Assembly: GCF_003999875.1 (NCBI RefSeq)
Contig: NZ_RQVJ01000006.1
Coordinates: 1 to 64,000, forward strand
Length of the DNA stretch: 64,000 bases
Direction of reading: 5' to 3'
Origin: Veillonella sp. 3310
Lineage (GTDB): Bacteria; Bacillota; Negativicutes; Veillonellales; Veillonellaceae
Shown here in pieces: positions 14,023 to 43,257 of the stretch (positions are counted from its first letter, which is position 1; each line of letters starts with the position of its first letter). The translations under genes and the position numbers were made by a program. The notes beneath the pieces were generated by a model. It saw only the letters and a list, made by a program, of their open reading frames with translations. It ran no database searches and had not been told where the DNA came from.

Positions 14023-15252
14023 ATGAAAAAACATTTAGCAGTATTAGCTGCAACAGCAGTATTGGGTGTTACTTCTGCATTCGCAGCAAACCCATTCTCC
14101 GACGTAACTCCACAAGATTGGGCATACCAAGCAGTAGCTCAATTGGCTTCCCAAGGTATCGTTAACGGTTACCCAGATGGTACTTTCAAAGGCCAAAACA
14201 ACATCACTCGTTATGAAATGGCGCAAATGGTTGCTAAAGCATTAGTTCGTCAAGATCGTGTTGACGCTGAACAAAATGCAATCATCAATCGTTTAGCTAA
14301 CGAATTCTCCGCTGAGTTGAACAACTTAGGCGTTCGTGTAGCTACATTGGAAAACAAAGTGGGCAACTTCAAATTCACTGGTGACGCTCGTCTTCGTTAC
14401 ATTGGTTCCAATGATGCACGTGATTCTAAATTTGACTACCGTGGTCGTGTAAAATTCGAAGCAACTGTAAATGATAATACTAAAGCAGTGGTTCGTTTAA
14501 TGGGTAGCAAAGAGTTTGGCGCAGCAGGTAACCCTAATACAGCTATCGATCGCGTATATGTGCAACATAACTTCGGCAAATATGCAACTGTAACAGCTGG
14601 TCGTCAAGATTTAGTAGTTGGTGCAGGTCTTGCATATGATGATGTATTTGAAGGCGTTGTAGCTAACGTTGGTAAAGATAAATTAAATGCGTCTGTTGCA
14701 TTTGGTTACTTACAAGCTGGCGAAGCTTATGGACAAAAACTTAATAAAATTGGTCGTAAAGCAGACGAACAAAACCCTAACACAAATGAACAACTTTCTG
14801 TATACCAATTAAACTATAATCCAACAGCAAAAGTTGCAGTAAAAGGTTTCTATGCTGATGTTCATGAAGAAAATCTAGACAATGCATATGGTGCATCCCT
14901 TGACCTTATGCTTGGCAAAAAAGTTTGGGTTGGCGGTGAATATGTTAAAACTGAAACTTTAGGTGCTAATGGTGAAGGCTGGACTGCAGGTTTAGGCTAT
15001 GGTAACTACAACATGGCAAAACAAGGTACTTGGAGTGTGAAAGCTCAATACTTCGACATCAAGAAAGATGCTCCTGTAGTATCCACTACTTGGAACTTGA
15101 TTGAGAAAGATCAAAAAGGCGTATTGGCAACAGCTAAATATGCTGTTGCTAAAAACGTAGGTCTTGCTGGTTATGCAACAATTGACACTAAAGGTCAAGA
15201 TGACAAAGCTAAAGCAGAAGCTTACCGTGCAGAACTTAACTACAAATTCTAG
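14023..15252 (+). CDS. ompM: OmpM-type SLH porin, copy 2
   Basis: This 409-residue paralogue has the same architecture: signal peptide 1-21, SLH domain about 23-80, coiled coil about 92-118, and an OM beta-barrel ending LNYKF. The first 130 residues are almost identical to copies 1 and 3, while the barrel is closer to copy 3 than to copy 1 (for example the KEFGAAGNP and GKYAT segments). It lacks the acidic insert of copy 1. It has its own promoter, leader and terminator, so the three porins can be expressed independently. Confidence 0.93.
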   Translation: MKKHLAVLAATAVLGVTSAFAANPFSDVTPQDWAYQAVAQLASQGIVNGYPDGTFKGQNNITRYEMAQMVAKALVRQDRVDAEQNAIINRLANEFSAELNNLGVRVATLENKVGNFKFTGDARLRYIGSNDARDSKFDYRGRVKFEATVNDNTKAVVRLMGSKEFGAAGNPNTAIDRVYVQHNFGKYATVTAGRQDLVVGAGLAYDDVFEGVVANVGKDKLNASVAFGYLQAGEAYGQKLNKIGRKADEQNPNTNEQLSVYQLNYNPTAKVAVKGFYADVHEENLDNAYGASLDLMLGKKVWVGGEYVKTETLGANGEGWTAGLGYGNYNMAKQGTWSVKAQYFDIKKDAPVVSTTWNLIEKDQKGVLATAKYAVAKNVGLAGYATIDTKGQDDKAKAEAYRAELNYKF

Positions 15253-15270
15253 TTTGACAGTTAAACATAT

Positions 15271-15301
15271 AAAAAGAACTCCTTCGGGAGTTCTTTTTTT
15301 T
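15271..15301 (+). terminator. Terminator of ompM copy 2
   Basis: A GAACTCC-TTC-GGGAGTTC hairpin followed by eight T residues. Confidence 0.92.
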
Positions 15302-15343
15302 GTTCAAAATTAAACGAATTGAGTAAAAAACGGAAAAATATTG

Positions 15344-15372
15344 TTGAGTTTTATAATTTCTTGTGTTATGAT
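15344..15372 (+). promoter_or_regulatory. Promoter of ompM copy 3
   Basis: TTGAGT (15344-15349) and TATGAT (15367-15372) are 17 bases apart, giving a leader of about 160 nt. Confidence 0.7.
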
Positions 15373-15426
15373 GGTCTCAAGTCAAATATAGAAGAATTAG
15401 ATTCGATTACAGACATGTATTGCTTA

Positions 15427-15538
15427 TATGTGAGGAAACGTGGACACTCCATTGAAAAGTAATGCAATGATATAATTCAATCTGACTCATTATAGGAGAC
15501 GGTTTATATTATTTTATTTTCATTGAGAGGTAATTATC
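15427..15538 (+). promoter_or_regulatory. Conserved ompM 5' leader, copy 3
   Basis: Aligns over its whole length with the copy 2 leader: GAGGAAACGTGGACACTCCA, GAAAAGTAATGCAATGATATAA, and an identical final 20 bases before the start codon. The shared core hairpin is TGGA-CAC-TCCA. Confidence 0.6.
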
Positions 15539-16801
15539 ATGAAAAAACATTTAGCAGTATTGGCTGCCACAGCAGTATTGGGTGTAACTTCTGCATTCGC
15601 AGCAAACCCATTCTCCGATGTAACTCCACAAGATTGGGCATACCAAGCAGTAGCTCAATTAGCTTCCCAAGGTATCGTTAACGGTTACCCAGATGGCACT
15701 TTCAAAGGCCAACACAATATCACTCGTTTTGAAATGGCTCAAATGGTAGCAAAAGCTATGGCTCGTCAAGATCGTGTTGACGCTGAACAAAATGCTATCA
15801 TCAACCGTTTGGCTAACGAATTCTCCGCTGAATTGAACAACTTAGGTGTTCGTGTTTCTACATTAGAAAACAAAGTAGGCAACTTCTCTTTCACTGGTGA
15901 TGCTCGTCTTCGTTACCAACACTCTAAAGTAGAAAATGAAGATAAATCTGAAACTTATAAATCTAAATTTGATTATCGTGGTCGTGTGCAATTTGCGGCA
16001 ACTGTAAATGACAATACTAAAGCAGTAGTTCGTTTAGTTGGCGAAAAAGAATTCGGTGCAGCAGGTAATCCAGAAACTAGCCTTGACCGTGTATATGTAC
16101 AACATAACTTCGGTAAATATGCAACAGCTACAGTAGGTCGTCAAGATTTAGTAGTTGGTAATGGCCTTGTATACGATGATGCATTTGAAGGTGCAGTAGC
16201 GACAGTTGGTAAAGATAAATTAAATGCATCTGTTGCCTATGGTTACTTACAAGGTGGTAGCTATATTAATGAAGCTGGTAAAAAAGTAGAATTTGATAAA
16301 GCTGAACGTAAAGATAATTCTCAAGTAACAGTTTATCAATTAAACACTATGCCAACTGAAAAATTAGCGGTAAAAGGTTTCTATGCTGATGTTCATGAAA
16401 AAGGCGTAAATAGTGTATATGGTGCATCTGTTGATGCTAAATTAGGCTCCAAAGTTTGGGTTGGTGGCGAATATGCTAAACAAGAAACTAAAGGTGCAGC
16501 AGGTGAAGCTTGGACTGCAGGCCTAGGCTATGGCGAAGCTGATATGGCTAAAGCTGGTACTTGGGGTGCAAAAGTTCAATACTTCGACTTGAAAAAAGCA
16601 GCTCCAGTAGTATCCAATACTTGGAACTTGAATGATCAAAACCAAAACTACAGAGGTTACCTAGCAACTGTAGACTACACTGTAGCTAAAAACGTTGGTC
16701 TTTCTGCTTACGCTACATTCGACAGCAAGAAAAAAGATGACAACAATAAATCTGTTAACTTGCCAGAATACTACCGTGCAGAACTTAACTACAAATTCTA
16801 A
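15539..16801 (+). CDS. ompM: OmpM-type SLH porin, copy 3
   Basis: This 420-residue third tandem porin has signal peptide 1-21, SLH domain about 23-80 (here ITRFEMAQMV instead of ITRYEMAQMV), coiled coil, and a barrel ending LNYKF. It is most similar to copy 2 in both leader and barrel, suggesting the two arose by the more recent duplication. As in the family, it probably spans the OM as a trimer and anchors it to the cell wall. Confidence 0.93.
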   Translation: MKKHLAVLAATAVLGVTSAFAANPFSDVTPQDWAYQAVAQLASQGIVNGYPDGTFKGQHNITRFEMAQMVAKAMARQDRVDAEQNAIINRLANEFSAELNNLGVRVSTLENKVGNFSFTGDARLRYQHSKVENEDKSETYKSKFDYRGRVQFAATVNDNTKAVVRLVGEKEFGAAGNPETSLDRVYVQHNFGKYATATVGRQDLVVGNGLVYDDAFEGAVATVGKDKLNASVAYGYLQGGSYINEAGKKVEFDKAERKDNSQVTVYQLNTMPTEKLAVKGFYADVHEKGVNSVYGASVDAKLGSKVWVGGEYAKQETKGAAGEAWTAGLGYGEADMAKAGTWGAKVQYFDLKKAAPVVSNTWNLNDQNQNYRGYLATVDYTVAKNVGLSAYATFDSKKKDDNNKSVNLPEYYRAELNYKF

Positions 16802-33352: not shown

Positions 33353-34531
33353 ATGAAGATTGCAATTATGGCATTTGGAATCAATAGTATAAGTAACATT
33401 TCAGGTATGGAACGAGTCTTTGTAAATATGTCAAATGAAATGTCTAGGCGCGGTCATACAGTGTATATGATCTGGAAGGGTGATGAGGGAGAAGAACCAT
33501 TTTATAAATTTGATCAATCTGTTCGTAAATATAATCTAGGCTTAGGAAATATTAAGGTTCCATATATATAAGATCGAAAGAGAAATTACTAGATTTTTAA
33601 GGCTTTCGGTTATTAATAAAGTTGATCAATATAAATATGAGCAAATAAGTTCAGCAATTACCAAGGTTATTAATATCGATGAAATAGATATATTTATTTG
33701 TCATGAGTTAAATAGTGTTTTTGTTGCTCAACATTTAACTAATGGATGTAAGCCCATTATAGGAATGGTTCACGGAAATGTTGAAAGAGAGTTTCATAGA
33801 ATATCTATCAATCAAAAAAATCATTATCTAAATTAGATTTATATCAAGTTTTAACACCGTCCTTTAAAAAAGACTTAGAGAGAGTTTTGGGGATTCCAGT
33901 AGTAGTGATTCCTAATGCTGTAGAACCGACAAAGTTGTCAAAAATAGAAAGAGGAGTAAAGTCTAGTTATACTCTATTATCTGTTGGAAGAGTTGAAGGG
34001 GAGAATAAACGCCCTTTTATTACGATACAAAGTTTTGCTGAAATTTGCCATAAATATCCTAATTGGTTTTTAGATTTTTATGGGCCAGTAACAGATGAAG
34101 CTTATATGCACGAAATTCAGATGTTTATTAAAACGCATAATTTAGAGAATCGTATAAGGTACAAAGGTGTATCAAATAATTTACAACCAATTTATGAAAA
34201 TGCTGATATTTTAGGGTTTCCTTCAAAGTACGAAGGATTTAGTGTAGTTATGGCGGAAGCTATGGAATCGGGATTGCCTGTTATTGGATTTAAAGACTCT
34301 CCAGGAGTTAATGAAATGATAATTGATAATTATAATGGATTTCTTGTAGGTTCCATAAAAGAATATACCGAAAAGTTAGAAGTTTTGATGGCAAATTATA
34401 ATATACGAAATAAAATGGCATTACAATCGCATAAATCAGTAGAGAATTTGTCAAATGGGGAAGTATGGATTCGTTGGGAATATGTTATGAAACAATTAAT
34501 TGATAGGTATAATGATAAAAAGGTAAGATGA
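33353..34531 (+). pseudogene. Family 4 glycosyltransferase broken by two frameshifts
   Basis: Three successive frames together make one GT4 protein related to the gene at 26446. 33353-33571 gives the N-terminus (SGMERVFVNMSNEMSRRGH). A middle part about 33563-33835 includes PIIGMVHGNVEREFHR. A third part from about 33817 carries YTLLSVGRVEGENKRPFITI and FPSKYEGFSVVMAEAMESG. The breaks fall at an ATATATATA tract near 33565 and an A7 tract near 33820. As written no full-length product is made; slippage or sequencing error at these tracts are alternatives. Confidence 0.8.
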
Positions 34532-34558: not shown

Positions 34559-35309
34559 GGCTCTATACCCAATGTTGGGGCTACTCATATAAGAGTAGTC
34601 ACCAACATTTTTTGTTGCAATAAAATAGACATATACAAATGTGTCCACATTGTGGAGCGCTCCCTAGAAAGTCTAAAGGTAAAGGACCTAGATAGGTTAA
34701 ATTTGACGCTGCACAGCATTATTCAGTGACTGTAACCTATTTACAAAGACGTTACAAATGTCAGGAATCTAATCACACTTTCATAGAAAAGCATTCTTTT
34801 GTTTGCCGTTATTTATGACTTAGTAAAACTAATATGGAATATCTATTTAGACAACTTGGCGAAAAAGGATCCTTCACTGAGATGGTTAAATGTAGTAATG
34901 TTTCTGTCTCCACTATTTAAGTTAGTGATGCAAACTATGTTCCCTCATGTACATATTGTGGCAGATTGTTACCATTGTGTGTCGCTTGGTAGATTGGGAT
35001 CTCGAGCGAGTACGCAAGCGTGACAAAAAACAATTAGTAGCGCACTCTAGGATGCTCAAATATAACCGAAGGATTCTTATGAAGAATCCAGATACATTAA
35101 CTGAAGACGAGCGAGAATTGTTAATGCCTTTGTATTACCCTATTCCAACGGTTTACAGAAGGCTGTAATAATATTAAAGTGTTAAAAAGAATAAGTTATG
35201 AGTTACGTCATTTTGAACACTTCAGAGTTCGTATACTTCTATTAAGCAAAAAGAATAGCTAGTGCTAAGAACTTTTTATATTAGTAGCTCCTGCATTTGA
35301 CAAAGGGGC
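34559..35309 (+). mobile_element. Decayed ISL3-family insertion sequence
   Basis: The left end (34559-34584) reads GGCTCTATACCCAATGTTGG then GGCTAC. The right end (35284-35309), on the other strand, reads GCCCCTTTGTCAAATGCAGG then AGCTAC. These are imperfect inverted repeats of 26 bases. Between them is a fragmented transposase. The left end also forms a long hairpin (34570-34612). Confidence 0.75.
34638..35255 (+). pseudogene. ISL3-family transposase remnant
   Basis: Fragments in several frames recall ISL3 transposases: a CPHCG zinc-finger start near 34641, LQRRYKCQESNHTFIE (34740-34795), VIADCYH with RLVDWDLERVRKRDKKQL (about 34960-35030), a DTLTEDERELL stretch, and a KVLKRISYELRHFEHFRVRI C-terminus (about 35177-35240). 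Frameshifts and internal deletions prevent any functional product. Confidence 0.8.
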
Positions 35310-35316
35310 TTTAAAG

Positions 35317-35345
35317 TTATAGTTACTTATATAATGTGCTATAAT
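35317..35345 (+). promoter_or_regulatory. Possible promoter of the YobI-like gene
   Basis: TTATAG (35317-35322), 17 bases, TATAAT (35340-35345), just outside the right end of the dead insertion sequence. The IS end itself carries an outward TTGACA (35297-35302). Confidence 0.45.
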
Positions 35346-35432
35346 AATACATAATATTTTGGGTAAAATTTGCAAGGAATTAAATTCAGATATAGGAGAC
35401 TTAATTTGTCTTGACAAAGAAAGATAGGTGAT

Positions 35433-38400
35433 ATGATGCTGGAAGGTGTAAAACATAATAAATTCAATGCACTTACCCCTGAAGTGTTAGAAGAAAACGA
35501 GCAAATATATACAGAAGCACTTGATTATGCTTTTAGCAATAGTAGTATAAAAAATATTGCTATTACCGGCATATATGGTGCTGGAAAAAGTACAGTATGG
35601 AATACCTATGTTCATGAAAAGGAATTAAGAAATATAATTACAGTTTCTTTGGGTAAATATAAAAATAATATTAAAGATGATGACGATAGACTAAAAGAAG
35701 CATCTTCGACGAATGCTTTAAATTCAGGGGTTGATGGTGCTAAAAATAAGTGTAGTAATGAAAATCAAAAAGCAGAGGATATAGGCGATGACAATAGGGT
35801 AGAAAGACAACTCATCAATCAAATATTATCTCAGATAGAATCAAAGAAAATACCACTTAGTAAATATGGTTTTAAATCAAATAAAAGCATCTTTAGCATA
35901 TGCATGGAATCATTGGCATTTCTTTCAATAATTTGCTCAATACTACTTTGGATAATAAAAGATAATTTTATATCGTTTGTTAATGAGTCGTATAAAAATT
36001 TTAATGGCATATCTTTGATGTTTATATGTGCCTTGTTGTTATTTGCACCATTGTTTTATTATTTGTATATATTCAATAGAGGGAACAAATTTAAAATTTC
36101 TAAAATAACATTCAAAGGTGCGGAAGCAAATATTAATGATAATAATAGCGATGAGTCAGTATTAGATAGAGATATTAAAGAGTTGGTTTACTTACTGAGA
36201 AGTTCTGATTCAAAGATTGTTGTTTTTGAAGATTTAGATAGATATGATAATGCGTCCATTTACACAAAGTTAAGAGAGCTGAATTTTCTGTTAAACAAAT
36301 ATGTAAAAGTAAACGATGAAAGGGAAACTCTGATAAGATTTGTATATATGCTTAAGGATAGTTTATTTTACTCTAAAAACAGAACTAAATTCTTCGATTT
36401 CATTTTACCTATAGTCCCTGTGGTAGACTCAAAAACATCAGAAAATGCACTTATTGAACTTTTGAAAAAAGTAGAGAATACCCCTGATAGAAGTTTATTG
36501 ACTGATATTTCTTTATATGTGGATGATATGAGGCTTCTAAAAAACATAGTTAATGAGTATATTGTGTACTCTAAAATTATACCAATAGGAAAGATTGACT
36601 TGGAGAGTAATAAACTATTTGCACTTATTACTTTAAAAAATATATTCCCAAATGAGTTTGATCTTTTGCAGGAAGATAAAGGCTTTATAAGGGCAATATT
36701 TGATGAATTGGAGTCTAATAGGAAAAAAATTGTTAGTAATTTTAAGCAGGATCTAGAGAAAATCGAGGATAATATTAAATTTATAAATAGTAGGATTGCG
36801 AATGATAAGTTTGAAGCAATGGCATTGATGATATCGACTGATGTAAGACCAAATAATAATCAATTTAAAACAATGCCGCAGTTTCTAAAAGATTGGAGTC
36901 AAAACCCTGATAATATTTTTTACATTGAGTATCCAAGCGGTACTGAATGGATTAATTATAATGATTTTTTGAATAAGTATGTTTTAACTGATAATGAAAA
37001 AAAGGTATTAGTTAAAAAATTACCAGAAGATTTTTCTGTTGAAATGAATAAACTTAATTTAGATAGAGAAAAAATAAAAAAGCAGATTAAAGATATTGAA
37101 ATATATAGCTATAAAGAGCTTATATCTAAAATGAACACTGAACAAAGGAATAAATTATTTTCAATTGATGGATTTGATATTGTAGAAAGTCATTATTTTC
37201 CTCTAATTAGATTTTTAATTGTAGACGGATTATTGGATGAAACATATTGGTACTATAAGGGCAACTTTAATGTGGATACATCAAATATATTAAAGAAAAA
37301 TGACATGATCTATATGAAAGGATTAAAGGAAGGTAAAGCTCTAGATATTTTCTTGGATGTTGAAACGCCTAATGAGATAATAAGAAGATTAAAACTATCT
37401 GATTTTAGTCGTTTCAATGTATTGAATAAGAAAGTATTAAATACTTGTTTAGAGCAAAAACAAACTGAAAATGTATTAGCTATTGTTGATTCAGTTGACA
37501 TAAATGACAAGTATAAGGATTTATTAAAAATTTTAAACGAGTTTGACTTAGATATAGTAAGAATCTATTCTAATATGTTATTGAAAAATAATGTGGATAG
37601 CCTTGTTAGAACTTTGGAATTTTGCGAAGATGAAAATATTGATACTTTTAAGAATATACTGATTTCAGTTTTAACAAATAAAACTATAGATTTAGCTAAC
37701 TTAGTAAAATTTAAGGAATATATAGAACAAAATGAGAACATAATATCTTTAATACCTGAAGAAGAGTTTGATGTTTTTGTCGATAATATTCGTTCTGCGA
37801 GCATCGAGTTTGAAGATGTGTCAGAAGCAAATTGTGATAAAGTGAGATTGGCTGGTGTTGAGCAGGTTCATGCATATAAGCTAAACGTTAGAAATTTATT
37901 GTTTATAACTGAAGCGATATTAGAAAAGACTATAAACTATGGTAGTTTGTTAAGTGAGATTTACCACTCTTCTCAGTTATCGTCAAGCAAAGAGTATATT
38001 GAGGATAATTTTTCGATCGTTATATCCGATTATATAGATGAAAACAAGAATGAAAAAAACTATACTAACAGTGAGGAGATACTATTAAGAATTCTTAATT
38101 CTGATATTTCTGATAAATATAAATTAGAGTATGTAGAGAAGAATGAAACAGCAATTTCAAAGTTAACTGATCTACAAGATAACTCTGTAACGACTGGAAT
38201 GCTTGATTGTTTATTACGAAAAAATAAAGTTCAGTTCTGCTCAGATAATATAGCTTCATATTGGAATATGATTGAAAAATATAGTGATGATTTCGTTGAA
38301 TATCTAAATGACAACTTGGATGAAGATAATAATGAAGATATATTAAAAAATAATATTTCTGTCTGTAATACCTTTATAAATAGTTCATTAGTAAGTGATA

Positions 38401-39185
38401 AGGTTTTTGGATTCGTCATAAAATATGCGAATGAACCAATAAGTAATATCAATCATGAACTAACACAAAATAGAGTTAATACTTTAGTTCACCAGAGATT
38501 AATTGAAGTGACAGAAAAGAATATTGAGACATTATGGAATAACTCATATTATGCCGAATTGATTTTGATGGCAGATTATGGTGACGATGTGGCAGAGGAA
38601 CTTGTTATAAATATGCTTTTAAATTATGAGCTTTCTGATGAGTTGATATATGGTTTAGTTAATAGTGATATTGCAGATGGTAATTCTATGAAGCTAATAG
38701 ATTCAATAAAAGATAGTGTCTTAGTTGAAAAGATACATCAAACTAAAAAAACTATCATAGAATATATTATTAAGGGAGATTTATCTTCGGTAAATATTAA
38801 CTATATATGTAAATCCTTTAAGATGTTTGAGTTAAAAGATGAGTTTATAAAGTCATTAGATGATAAAGACAAATTGGAAGATTTGGAAGATGAAAATCTC
38901 AATGAAGTTTTTATGCAATATGTACTAAGCTCACCAGATATCAAATTAAGTACCAAAGTATCTTTGGTGTTAACTAAGATTAAAAATGGATTGAGTGTTA
39001 ATATTCTGAAAGGTTATATATCCTCTGTAAAAGAAATCTCAGAGTTATCTAATGTTTGGGAGAATAAACAGCCTTTGTTGGATGATTCTTATAAGGATAA
39101 AGTGGGACAGGCATTAATAGAATTTGGCTATGTTAAACCACGTAAAAATAAAGGTTATCCTAGAATCATGCTTTCGAGGATATAA
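35433..39185 (+). CDS. YobI-like membrane P-loop NTPase
   Basis: This 1250-residue protein begins NALTPEVLEENEQIYTEALD, the opening seen in the YobI P-loop NTPase family. Walker A is GIYGAGKST (46-54). Two hydrophobic segments (about 157-178 and 192-213) follow a charged, low-complexity spacer. Walker B is KIVVFEDLDRYD (261-272). The rest is a long, mostly helical, Asp/Glu/Asn-rich region, probably an alpha-solenoid sensor, ending in a basic tail. The architecture (NTPase split by a membrane hairpin, then a large helical tail) resembles STAND-like or conflict NTPases, but function is not established. The gene is very AT-rich, sits next to a dead IS and is likely acquired. AGGTG is a weak ribosome site. 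Confidence 0.78.
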   Translation: MMLEGVKHNKFNALTPEVLEENEQIYTEALDYAFSNSSIKNIAITGIYGAGKSTVWNTYVHEKELRNIITVSLGKYKNNIKDDDDRLKEASSTNALNSGVDGAKNKCSNENQKAEDIGDDNRVERQLINQILSQIESKKIPLSKYGFKSNKSIFSICMESLAFLSIICSILLWIIKDNFISFVNESYKNFNGISLMFICALLLFAPLFYYLYIFNRGNKFKISKITFKGAEANINDNNSDESVLDRDIKELVYLLRSSDSKIVVFEDLDRYDNASIYTKLRELNFLLNKYVKVNDERETLIRFVYMLKDSLFYSKNRTKFFDFILPIVPVVDSKTSENALIELLKKVENTPDRSLLTDISLYVDDMRLLKNIVNEYIVYSKIIPIGKIDLESNKLFALITLKNIFPNEFDLLQEDKGFIRAIFDELESNRKKIVSNFKQDLEKIEDNIKFINSRIANDKFEAMALMISTDVRPNNNQFKTMPQFLKDWSQNPDNIFYIEYPSGTEWINYNDFLNKYVLTDNEKKVLVKKLPEDFSVEMNKLNLDREKIKKQIKDIEIYSYKELISKMNTEQRNKLFSIDGFDIVESHYFPLIRFLIVDGLLDETYWYYKGNFNVDTSNILKKNDMIYMKGLKEGKALDIFLDVETPNEIIRRLKLSDFSRFNVLNKKVLNTCLEQKQTENVLAIVDSVDINDKYKDLLKILNEFDLDIVRIYSNMLLKNNVDSLVRTLEFCEDENIDTFKNILISVLTNKTIDLANLVKFKEYIEQNENIISLIPEEEFDVFVDNIRSASIEFEDVSEANCDKVRLAGVEQVHAYKLNVRNLLFITEAILEKTINYGSLLSEIYHSSQLSSSKEYIEDNFSIVISDYIDENKNEKNYTNSEEILLRILNSDISDKYKLEYVEKNETAISKLTDLQDNSVTTGMLDCLLRKNKVQFCSDNIASYWNMIEKYSDDFVEYLNDNLDEDNNEDILKNNISVCNTFINSSLVSDKVFGFVIKYANEPISNINHELTQNRVNTLVHQRLIEVTEKNIETLWNNSYYAELILMADYGDDVAEELVINMLLNYELSDELIYGLVNSDIADGNSMKLIDSIKDSVLVEKIHQTKKTIIEYIIKGDLSSVNINYICKSFKMFELKDEFIKSLDDKDKLEDLEDENLNEVFMQYVLSSPDIKLSTKVSLVLTKIKNGLSVNILKGYISSVKEISELSNVWENKQPLLDDSYKDKVGQALIEFGYVKPRKNKGYPRIMLSRI

Positions 39186-39506: not shown

Positions 39507-39614
39507 TGGTGGGATGCGGGGGATTTGAACCCCCAGCACAAATCTATGTTAAATGTAATTCTTCAATCTATGTTTCTTTTTTCATATGGAGCCATCCCGA
39601 AAAGTGCCGCATCC
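39507..39614 (-). ncRNA. tRNA-like 3' domain with encoded CCA
   Basis: Read on the minus strand, this has a perfect T-arm GGGGGTTCAAATCCCCC (39534-39518), acceptor strand GCATCCC, discriminator A and CCA. The matching 5' acceptor strand GGATGC occurs at 39614-39609, followed by GGCAC that pairs with GTGCT just before the T-arm. An alternative 5' strand, GGGATGG, starts at 39598. There is no recognisable D-arm or anticodon arm. It may be a wrecked tRNA, an attachment-site remnant or a novel tRNA-like RNA. Confidence 0.5.
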
Positions 39615-39982: not shown

Positions 39983-40480
39983 GTGAATGATTTAGAAAAT
40001 AAAGAGCTGAAAAAAACAGAGATAATTGTAAAGCTTAGTTATGAGCCTAATTGGCCAACGCGAATAATATTTATTAGATTAATTATTACAATTGTATCCG
40101 CACTCATTATATTTACTGATATTAGTGAAGGAACAAGTTTTTTTAGATCTTTATTTATTTTTTGTTCATCTATCCTTTTTGCGACAATAGGCATTAGTAG
40201 TTTCGGTTGGAAGCAGAAGCTACATAATGTAATTCACTTTGTATTATATATGTATATTACAATTGCGGCTTTGGGGCTATTTAATCTACTGCAAGTTATG
40301 ACAGTAGATGGTAAGGGATATGTTTACTTCAACCCTATGGGGCCGATGCCTTTGATACATGTATCGACTAATGTGTTGTTTTATATCTTAGTGGTTGTAA
40401 TTATATTATTATCATGTATTCAATATGTGAATTCGTATGAACCAGATGTAAGGAACCTAGAAAAAGAGGAGGCGAGATAA
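39983..40480 (+). CDS. Four-helix membrane protein, unknown
   Basis: This 165-residue protein has four hydrophobic segments (about 28-47, 52-70, 79-101, 128-148) and charged ends. The GTG start at 39983 follows AGGAGGG at good distance; the next in-frame ATG is much later. I do not recognise a family. The next gene starts one base after its stop, so the two form an operon. It is AT-rich, like the NTPase region. Confidence 0.7.
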   Translation: MNDLENKELKKTEIIVKLSYEPNWPTRIIFIRLIITIVSALIIFTDISEGTSFFRSLFIFCSSILFATIGISSFGWKQKLHNVIHFVLYMYITIAALGLFNLLQVMTVDGKGYVYFNPMGPMPLIHVSTNVLFYILVVVIILLSCIQYVNSYEPDVRNLEKEEAR

Positions 40481-40481
40481 T

Positions 40482-40856
40482 ATGTTTACATTATTTATTA
40501 TTATAGTCTCGGCTTGTTATTTTGGCGTTGTTTTTGGTGCAATTATTAAATTTAAAGAAAAAAATGTCTGTACTGTATCTACCATTTTGTTTTCCTTTAT
40601 TTTACCATTTGAACATTTTTTTCTATTTCCTAAGCATTATTTTAAAGATAAGAAGAATATTAGCTTGTACAAGCGTATACGTATTGTTTTAACAACCGCA
40701 GAACTACTACCGATTATTATTACTGGATTGGCTGAAACACTAGTTATGAGTGGCTATACACAAGTAGATGAAGAAAAACAACCTCGTGTATTAGAAGGTA
40801 TTGCTAAAAATCAATATGATGAAATATATGGAACCCTGTGTCCTCATTGCGTATAA
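40482..40856 (+). CDS. Small membrane protein with C-terminal CxxC, unknown
   Basis: This 124-residue protein has hydrophobic segments at about 2-24, 30-50 and 65-87, and a soluble tail ending CPHCV. It is translationally linked to the preceding membrane protein (GAGGCGAG before the ATG lies inside that gene's end). The final CxxC might bind metal or be redox active. No family is recognised. A terminator follows after about 100 bases. Confidence 0.65.
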   Translation: MFTLFIIIVSACYFGVVFGAIIKFKEKNVCTVSTILFSFILPFEHFFLFPKHYFKDKKNISLYKRIRIVLTTAELLPIIITGLAETLVMSGYTQVDEEKQPRVLEGIAKNQYDEIYGTLCPHCV

Positions 40857-41187: not shown

Positions 41188-43257
41188 ATGAATCGATTCC
41201 AAATGGAACTTGCTGGTCGCACGTTATCGATTGAAACTGGCGAGTTGGCAAAACAAGCAAGTGGTTCTGCATTAGTACAATATGGTGATACGGTTGTATT
41301 GGTTACAGCAACGGCATCAAAAGAGGCAAAAGACATTGACTTCTTCCCATTAACAGTGGATTATGAAGAAAAAATGTATGCTGTTGGTAGATTCCCAGGT
41401 GGTTTTATTAAACGTGAAGCACGTCCACCAGAGTCTGCTATTTTAAATAGTCGTTTGATTGACCGTCCAATCCGTCCTTTATTCGATAAAGGTAGCCGTA
41501 ATGAAGTACATGTAGTAGCTACTGTATTATCTGTTGATCATGACCATGCACCTGAAATCTGTGCATTGATTGGTGCGTCTGCGGCATTATCCATTTCCGA
41601 TATTCCATGGGCAGGTCCTATTGCGGGCGTGCGCATGGGTCTTGTAGATGGCAATATCGTAGTCAACCCAACTGAAGTACAATTAGAAGCAACTACATTA
41701 AATATGGTTGTAGCTGGTACGAAAGATGCGATTTTGATGGTAGAAGGGGAAGCAAACGAAATTCCTGAAGACATCATCTTAGAAGTAATCATGACAGCTC
41801 ACGAAGAAATCAAAAAAATCGTAGCGTTCCAAGAGTCTATGGTAGCTGAAATTGGACATGCGAAACGCACATTCCCAATTAAAGAAGTAGACCCAGTGGT
41901 AGCAGAAGCAGTTCGTGCCTATGCACATGATAAATTAGATGCAGCTGTACGTTGCGCAGATAAAGTGCAACGTGAAGAGCAACAACAAGCTGTATTCGAA
42001 GAAGTGTTGGCTCATTTTGCTGAACAATTCCCAGAACAAGCGGGTGATATTTACGCTACATTAGAAAAAATGGTGAAAGAAATTGTACGTCATATGATTA
42101 CGGTAGAAAAAATCCGTCCAGATGGCCGTCAATTAGACGAAGTTCGTCCTATTTCTTGTCGTGTTAACGCCTTGCCACGTACTCATGGATCTGGCTTGTT
42201 TACACGTGGTCAAACACAAGTGTTAAACATTTGTACCTTAGCGCCATTATCTGAAAAACAAACTATCGATGGCATTGGTTTAGATACAGAAAAACGCTAC
42301 ATTCATCATTACAATTTCCCATCCTACTCCGTAGGGGAAACTCGTTCCTCTCGTGGTCCTGGACGTCGTGAAATTGGTCATGGTGCATTAGCTGAAAGAG
42401 CATTATTAGCAGTGCTTCCAACAGAAGAAGAATTTCCATATGCTATGCGTTTAGTATCTGAAGTATTAGAATCCAACGGATCTAGCTCTATGGCCAGCGT
42501 ATGTGGTTCCACTTTATCCTTGATGGACGCAGGGGTGCCGATCAAAGCGCCAGTAGCTGGTGTTGCAATGGGTCTTGTCACACAGGATGAACATTACACA
42601 ATCTTAACAGATATTCAAGGTATGGAAGATGCCTTAGGAGACATGGACTTCAAAGTAGCCGGTACTACAAAAGGTGTGACTGCGATCCAAATGGATATTA
42701 AAATTTCCGGTCTATCTCGTGAAATTTTAGAAGAAGCATTAGCACAAGCTCACAAAGGTCGTATGCACATCATGGGTAAAATGATGGAAGCTATCCAAGC
42801 ACCACGTGAAGAAATGTCTAAATGGGCTCCTCGCATTGTAACGATGAAAATTGATCCAGATAAAATCCGTGACGTTATCGGTACAGGCGGTAAAGTCATC
42901 CGTGGCATCATTGAAGAAACTGGTGCTAAAATTGACATCGAAGATGATGGCACAATCTCCATTGCTGCAGTAGAAGCGGAAGCAGCTGAAAAAGCAATCC
43001 AAATCATTACGAACTTGACAAAAGAAGTGGAAGCAGGCGAAGTGTACATGGGTAAAGTCACTCGTTTGATGAACTTCGGTGCTTTCGTAGAAGTATTGCC
43101 AGGTAAAGAAGGTTTGGTTCATATTTCTCAATTAGCAAGAGAACGTGTGGAAAAAGTAGAAGATGTAGTGAATGTAGGCGATGAAATTATGGTCAAAGTT
43201 ATCGAAATTGATGACAAAGGTCGTATTAACTTGTCTCGCAAAGAGCTATTGAAATAA
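41188..43257 (+). CDS. pnp: Polynucleotide phosphorylase
   Basis: This 689-residue phosphorolytic 3'-5' exoribonuclease forms the trimeric ring of RNA decay. Two RNase PH domains (about 12-225 and 300-535) flank a helical domain. They show [22 protein letters not shown] and the second-core [24 protein letters not shown] domain ([13 protein letters not shown], about 560) and an S1 domain (about 620-687) follow. The ATG at 41188 has AGGAGG six bases upstream; longer frames run into the promoter. dut follows after 12 bases. Confidence 0.97.

Follow-up and report, generated by a model that had tools for sequence, protein, structure and literature searches.

A divergent Tmn/YobI-family membrane NTPase upstream of pnp in Veillonella sp. 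3310, probably a single-gene anti-phage system

We analysed a 64,000-nucleotide stretch of Veillonella sp. 3310 DNA (the window) in which one gene encodes a large membrane NTPase. Judged from its sequence, this protein is no new system but a real, active-looking and divergent representative of an anti-phage family of single genes that is already known, and we consider it probable (roughly 0.8) that it acts in defence as a single-gene anti-phage system of the Tmn/YobI type. This role is favoured by Pfam and PADLOC matches, an end-to-end alignment with a Klebsiella protein, tail homology and invariant motifs. It is also favoured by the CBASS, AbiLi-like ATPase and RnlB antitoxin genes on the same side of pnp in sister genomes, and by homologues elsewhere, some with restriction-modification genes or integrases as neighbours and others carried by conjugative plasmids or prophage contigs. 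Patchy presence in the family, a dS well below that of pnp and a dN/dS of 0.32 speak for it too. Weighing against it are an identity of only about 22% to the Klebsiella protein, itself near tested Tmn, a long isolated branch, and a moderate structural model with no decisive fold match. A preliminary description of this DNA had suggested a defence role; the Tmn and YobI matches, the tail homology, the patchy presence and the defence genes at sister sites suggest that it was probably right. The family and phage protection by Tmn in E. coli were known already; new here are a member on a distant branch and an HTH gene beside its sister copy.

The NTPase gene is a single unbroken ORF with an ATG start (Table 1). 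A chance ORF was ruled out by the family match (E 1e-104) and by a 92% identical copy in another species. Pfam assigned residues 26-419 to the NTPase domain, and hydropathy predicted two membrane helices inside that domain, between Walker A and Walker B. In a full-length alignment of the window protein with 10 homologues, the Walker A, FEDxDR and RTKFF motifs were invariant, the conserved positions across the 11 sequences being Y48, G51, K52, S53, E266, D267, D269, R270, R317-F321, D365, R367, N374 and E375. ORF, motif and hydropathy results thus agree with the preliminary description, which had reported a 1250-residue protein with Walker A and two membrane helices ahead of Walker B. Its tail of about 950 residues shortens to about 830, since the Pfam domain ends at residue 419. 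The tail was rightly called acidic and helical, with a net charge of -40 over residues 431-1250 and a predicted all-helical structure.

Table 1. Features at and around the NTPase gene, in window coordinates
Feature	Coordinates	Strand	Basis
Decayed ISL3-family insertion sequence	34559..35305	+	Fragmented PF01610 matches, stops in all frames
Upstream segment with TATAATAAT, possible retained promoter	35310..35354	+	89% identical to L016:127-171
3' remnant of Cro/CI-type HTH_26 regulator gene, last 22 codons and stop	35359..35427	+	Intact gene in sister genome
YobI-ATPase/Tmn-family membrane NTPase, 1250 aa	35433..39185	+	PF20693 and PADLOC Tmn matches, full-length alignment with 10 homologues
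Walker A GIYGAGKS, residues 46-53	35568..35591	+	Motif; Y48, G51, K52 and S53 invariant in 11 homologues
Transmembrane hairpin, residues 156-174 and 193-211	35898..36065	+	Hydropathy >1.5, 19-residue windows
Walker B-like IVVFEDLDR, residues 262-270	36216..36242	+	E266, D267, D269 and R270 invariant in 11 homologues
Helical tail, residues 421-1250, divergent internal repeats	36693..39182	+	Model, tail-profile self-match, relation to Tmn tail
tRNA 3' fragment (T-arm, acceptor 3' strand, CCA), possible old integration site	39507..39545	-	T-arm recognised
pnp (polynucleotide phosphorylase), fixed right flank of variable site	41191..43257	+	Present in 28/28 family genomes

The earlier YobI-like label held up in an HMM search, in which PF20693 (YobI-ATPase) matched over the whole model (positions 1-362 of 363) at E 1.1e-104 and 351 bits, against a cut-off of 27. 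Among defence-system models, which had been named as a further check, the PADLOC Tmn model PDLC02220, which comes without a displayed curated cut-off, matched in one stretch at E 4.4e-58 (model 22-1091 of 1273, 84% of the model). Tmn was the sole PADLOC match at E up to 1, AVAST models being unmatched. The Pfam search gave no match to PF07693 (KAP_NTPase) up to E 1, NCBIfam and PHROGs contained nothing matching the NTPase, and a PDB sequence search with it returned no match; no housekeeping family appeared among the Pfam and NCBIfam matches. As a stand-in for Tmn proper we took a protein from a Klebsiella plasmid, with a score of 2180 bits against PDLC02220, and it aligned with the window NTPase from end to end at about 20-22% identity. 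The family had been described as uncharacterised, which has to be corrected, as the protein falls in the Tmn family, phage-tested in E. coli (PMC11846954 and work cited there). On these comparisons "Tmn/YobI family" is a fitting name and "orthologue of E. coli Tmn" is not, because the window protein lies outside the clade of enterobacterial Tmn proteins in our tree.

Helical tails may resemble each other by composition, so tail profiles were compared alone and with reversed controls. The window tail matched Tmn tails at E 1.2e-6 over 601 columns (hhalign) and Firmicutes tails at E 4e-16, with reversed-tail controls at E 0.23 and 0.53, which indicates homology between the two tails of the window protein and Tmn. 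The family tail profile also matched itself off the diagonal (E 4.6e-6) and therefore appears to contain divergent internal repeats; the tail is a probable sensor solenoid. A structure check for helical repeats had been proposed at the outset, and alongside the repeats found by profile self-match, an AlphaFold model of the NTPase (pLDDT 68, pTM 0.38) gave, at moderate confidence, an all-helical tail. A PDB fold search with this moderate-quality model yielded no usable match. Its sole match below E 0.001, to dynein, was regarded as spurious (TM-score 0.09, 47 A rmsd), and weak matches to AAA+ (VPS4, RuvB) and solenoid (beta-catenin, Avs4) folds are consistent but were not counted as evidence.

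The gene is patchily distributed, in line with the accessory setting described earlier. It was present in 2 of 28 family genomes, both of the window's genus; the other four of the six genomes in that genus lack it, as do the family's remaining genera; order-wide, four genomes carried clear full-length members. The only find of a genome-contig search with the single NTPase protein was Veillonella sp. VA139, which the coordinates and 92% identity of its copy equate with contig 39 of our genome G003, a different species. In the tree this pair stands alone on a long branch and groups beside a Firmicutes/Fusobacteria YobI clade (support 94/99). The other two members from this order lie elsewhere in the tree, G038 next to a genome from a different family of the phylum and G051 next to G307. 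Because members from the order scatter in this way, the tree indicates that the gene has not spread by vertical descent, and we found neither the same locus occupied in all related genomes nor a vertical phylogeny. That the gene adjoins a glycan locus would suit a host physiological membrane ATPase with a stress or envelope function, variable by happenstance. We regard this as extremely improbable, given a gene absent from 26 of the 28 family genomes, with a scattered tree, recent exchange and no housekeeping match.

Homologues were found on 639 plasmid records, mostly from Escherichia, Klebsiella and Salmonella (480 predicted conjugative), and relatives at 23 loci on IMG/VR contigs; INPHARED phage records gave no match to the NTPase. 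Elsewhere in the phylum, our own reading of the sequences placed homologues beside type I or type III restriction genes, a type II methyltransferase accompanied by an HNH protein, integrases, or serine recombinases. We also observed a dense defence cluster near the Tmn relative of G051 (L022, 2674-7789), comprising an AbiLi-like ATPase, a HEPN protein and a DUF4917/PDC-S21 protein. The hundreds of plasmid-borne homologues, mostly on conjugative plasmids, the relatives in prophage contigs, and the tRNA and IS scars near the window gene are likewise in line with a YobI-family NTPase in some other conflict role, such as plasmid exclusion, mobile-element competition or maintenance of a carrier element. 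Tested members of the family block phages, however (PMC11846954), and phage-defence genes occupy the sister site, so that we consider such a role unlikely.

Between the window and sister copies of the NTPase gene, dS was 0.106 and dN/dS 0.32, while dS for pnp in the same two genomes was 0.309. Recent exchange of the NTPase gene is thus pointed to, because its dS is a third of that of pnp. Highly expressed genes usually show lowered dS, so this contrast is, if anything, understated. The dN/dS values, which like the dS values come from one sequence pair and a simple method (NG86), were 0.21 for the NTPase part and 0.44 for the last third of the tail, and the overall value indicates that the gene is maintained under purifying selection. 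That value also bears on whether this is a decaying copy whose function is gone, as might be suspected from an HTH gene cut to its last 22 codons and from the dead IS and tRNA scraps around it. A full-length ORF with all invariant motifs and an upstream segment that keeps TATAATAAT likewise argue against decay, which we consider very unlikely.

The cut HTH gene has an intact counterpart in G003 (68 aa, L016:206-412, HTH_26 E 8e-14), which ends 5 bases before the NTPase start, as the stop of the remnant does in the window. Compared with G003, about 168 bp are absent from the window between the 45-bp upstream segment and the last 22 HTH codons. A consensus promoter scan did not call TATAATAAT in that segment. 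From its position, the HTH protein may normally keep NTPase expression low, and because most of the regulator is deleted in this strain, expression here may be constitutive. Farther upstream, the ISL3 element had correctly been described as decayed, with DDE_Tnp_ISL3 matches split over frames and only about 0.75 kb remaining; it is 79-91% identical to ISL3 copies in L018, a sister-genome locus. The GT4-type glycosyltransferase gene adjoining it (33353-34531) appears broken, into fragments of 72 and 214 aa.

Downstream, the tRNA-like fragment of the preliminary description was recovered, with T-arm, 3' acceptor strand and CCA; ARAGORN called no tRNA at 39507 to about 39545. A 28-mer of this fragment had no other occurrence in 61 genomes of the order, the strain's own included, and the fragment was probably imported. 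We rejected the idea that it marks an att site whose intact partner is still present, since the genome has no second copy at up to 2 mismatches. Two small hydrophobic ORFs (165 and 124 aa) follow at 39983-40856, with no credible NCBIfam or PHROGs match; the 165-aa ORF is absent from five sister genomes. The surroundings had been called a strongly AT-rich block, and the low GC is real, at 27-28% between 36 and 39 kb compared with 38-43% from 41 kb onwards. The NTPase block is, however, only where AT content peaks within a broader AT-rich stretch that begins at about 22 kb and takes in the glycan locus. Elsewhere in the window (14023-16801), tandem near-duplicate genes encode SLH-domain outer-membrane proteins of 409 and 420 aa whose N-termini are almost identical.

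Both NTPase copies lie just upstream of pnp, and from 40.9-41.1 kb onwards the window is again homologous at the DNA level to each of the five sister genomes. In G003, an AbiLi-like AAA ATPase (469 aa) followed by a 228-aa protein without a Pfam match lies between the NTPase copy and pnp (L016, 6140-8238), possibly forming a two-gene defence system. On the same side of pnp, G005 (L018, 3746-8826) has a CBASS nucleotidyltransferase gene (PADLOC E 3e-164) together with genes for a 2TM-NUDIX effector (E 2e-88) and a SocA_Panacea protein. An RnlB antitoxin gene lies there in G001, a BRO-N gene in G002 and housekeeping genes in G004. These assignments were made by PADLOC and Pfam on inserts read up to contig ends, several of which are close by. 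A hotspot common to the whole family was ruled out: in 18 of 20 genomes from other genera, pnp follows the same ABC-transporter genes, and the variable site is therefore a feature of this genus.

Tmn protects E. coli against T2, P1, phiVi, phiX, T1 and Dhillonvirus phages by a mechanism that remains unexplored; a phage anti-Tmn protein counteracts it, and a point change in the phage gene nmad5 allows escape (PMC11846954). A genome survey lists Tmn, without detail, among systems interfering with replication or transcription (PMC12479173), and synergy between Gabija and tmn is mentioned second-hand in PMC12735699. For the window protein, we tentatively propose, at somewhat less than even odds, that the tail senses infection, the NTPase acts as a switch, and the effect passes through the membrane or the NTP pool. 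We favour this scheme because no effector domain is recognisable in the window protein besides the NTPase and hairpin. At rest, the NTPase would be held in the inner membrane by the hairpin. Binding of a phage product, or of an infection-caused change, by the helical tail would release NTP hydrolysis and self-assembly of the AAA-like core. The switch would then pass to the hairpin, or simply burn NTP, and infection would halt before progeny are made. More speculatively, the protein could represent a deep Tmn/YobI branch that responds to a trigger of its own and was formerly under a neighbouring Cro/CI-type repressor, within a genus-specific defence hotspot upstream of pnp; with the repressor lost here, it may be constitutive.

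Tmn protects bacteria in a way that is still unexplained. With 92% identity between them and an HTH regulator adjacent to only one, the two copies form a natural pair for work on expression control. The helical tails are family-wide and here evolve faster than the ATPase, offering material on what the tail senses. The site upstream of pnp is a place to seek more defence genes in this genus.

AVAST/STAND sensors such as Avs4 likewise combine an NTPase with a long helical tail, but the fold match (8dgf_B, E 0.03) is weak and not significant, the window protein has no AVAST model match in PADLOC, and it carries a membrane hairpin where they have a nuclease effector. The F-plasmid protein PifA is a KAP family NTPase. 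KAP NTPases have membrane segments inserted in the P-loop NTPase domain (Aravind et al. 2004, as cited in PMC11846954), a layout shared by the window protein, which Pfam nevertheless places in a separate family, with no PF07693 match up to E 1. With the YobI-ATPase family, named for B. subtilis YobI, it shares a match over the whole of PF20693, and B. subtilis gave a match in the control search. From Tmn (PDLC02220; E. coli PLG026 Tmn, PMC11846954) it differs in tree branch and in its roughly 22% identity to the Klebsiella copy, and the 350 bases upstream of the other homologues checked hold no obvious counterpart of the sister copy's HTH gene. With Tmn it nonetheless shares a single-gene organisation, a length of about 1250 aa, an NTPase with two membrane helices inside its domain, and a helical tail homologous over most of its length.
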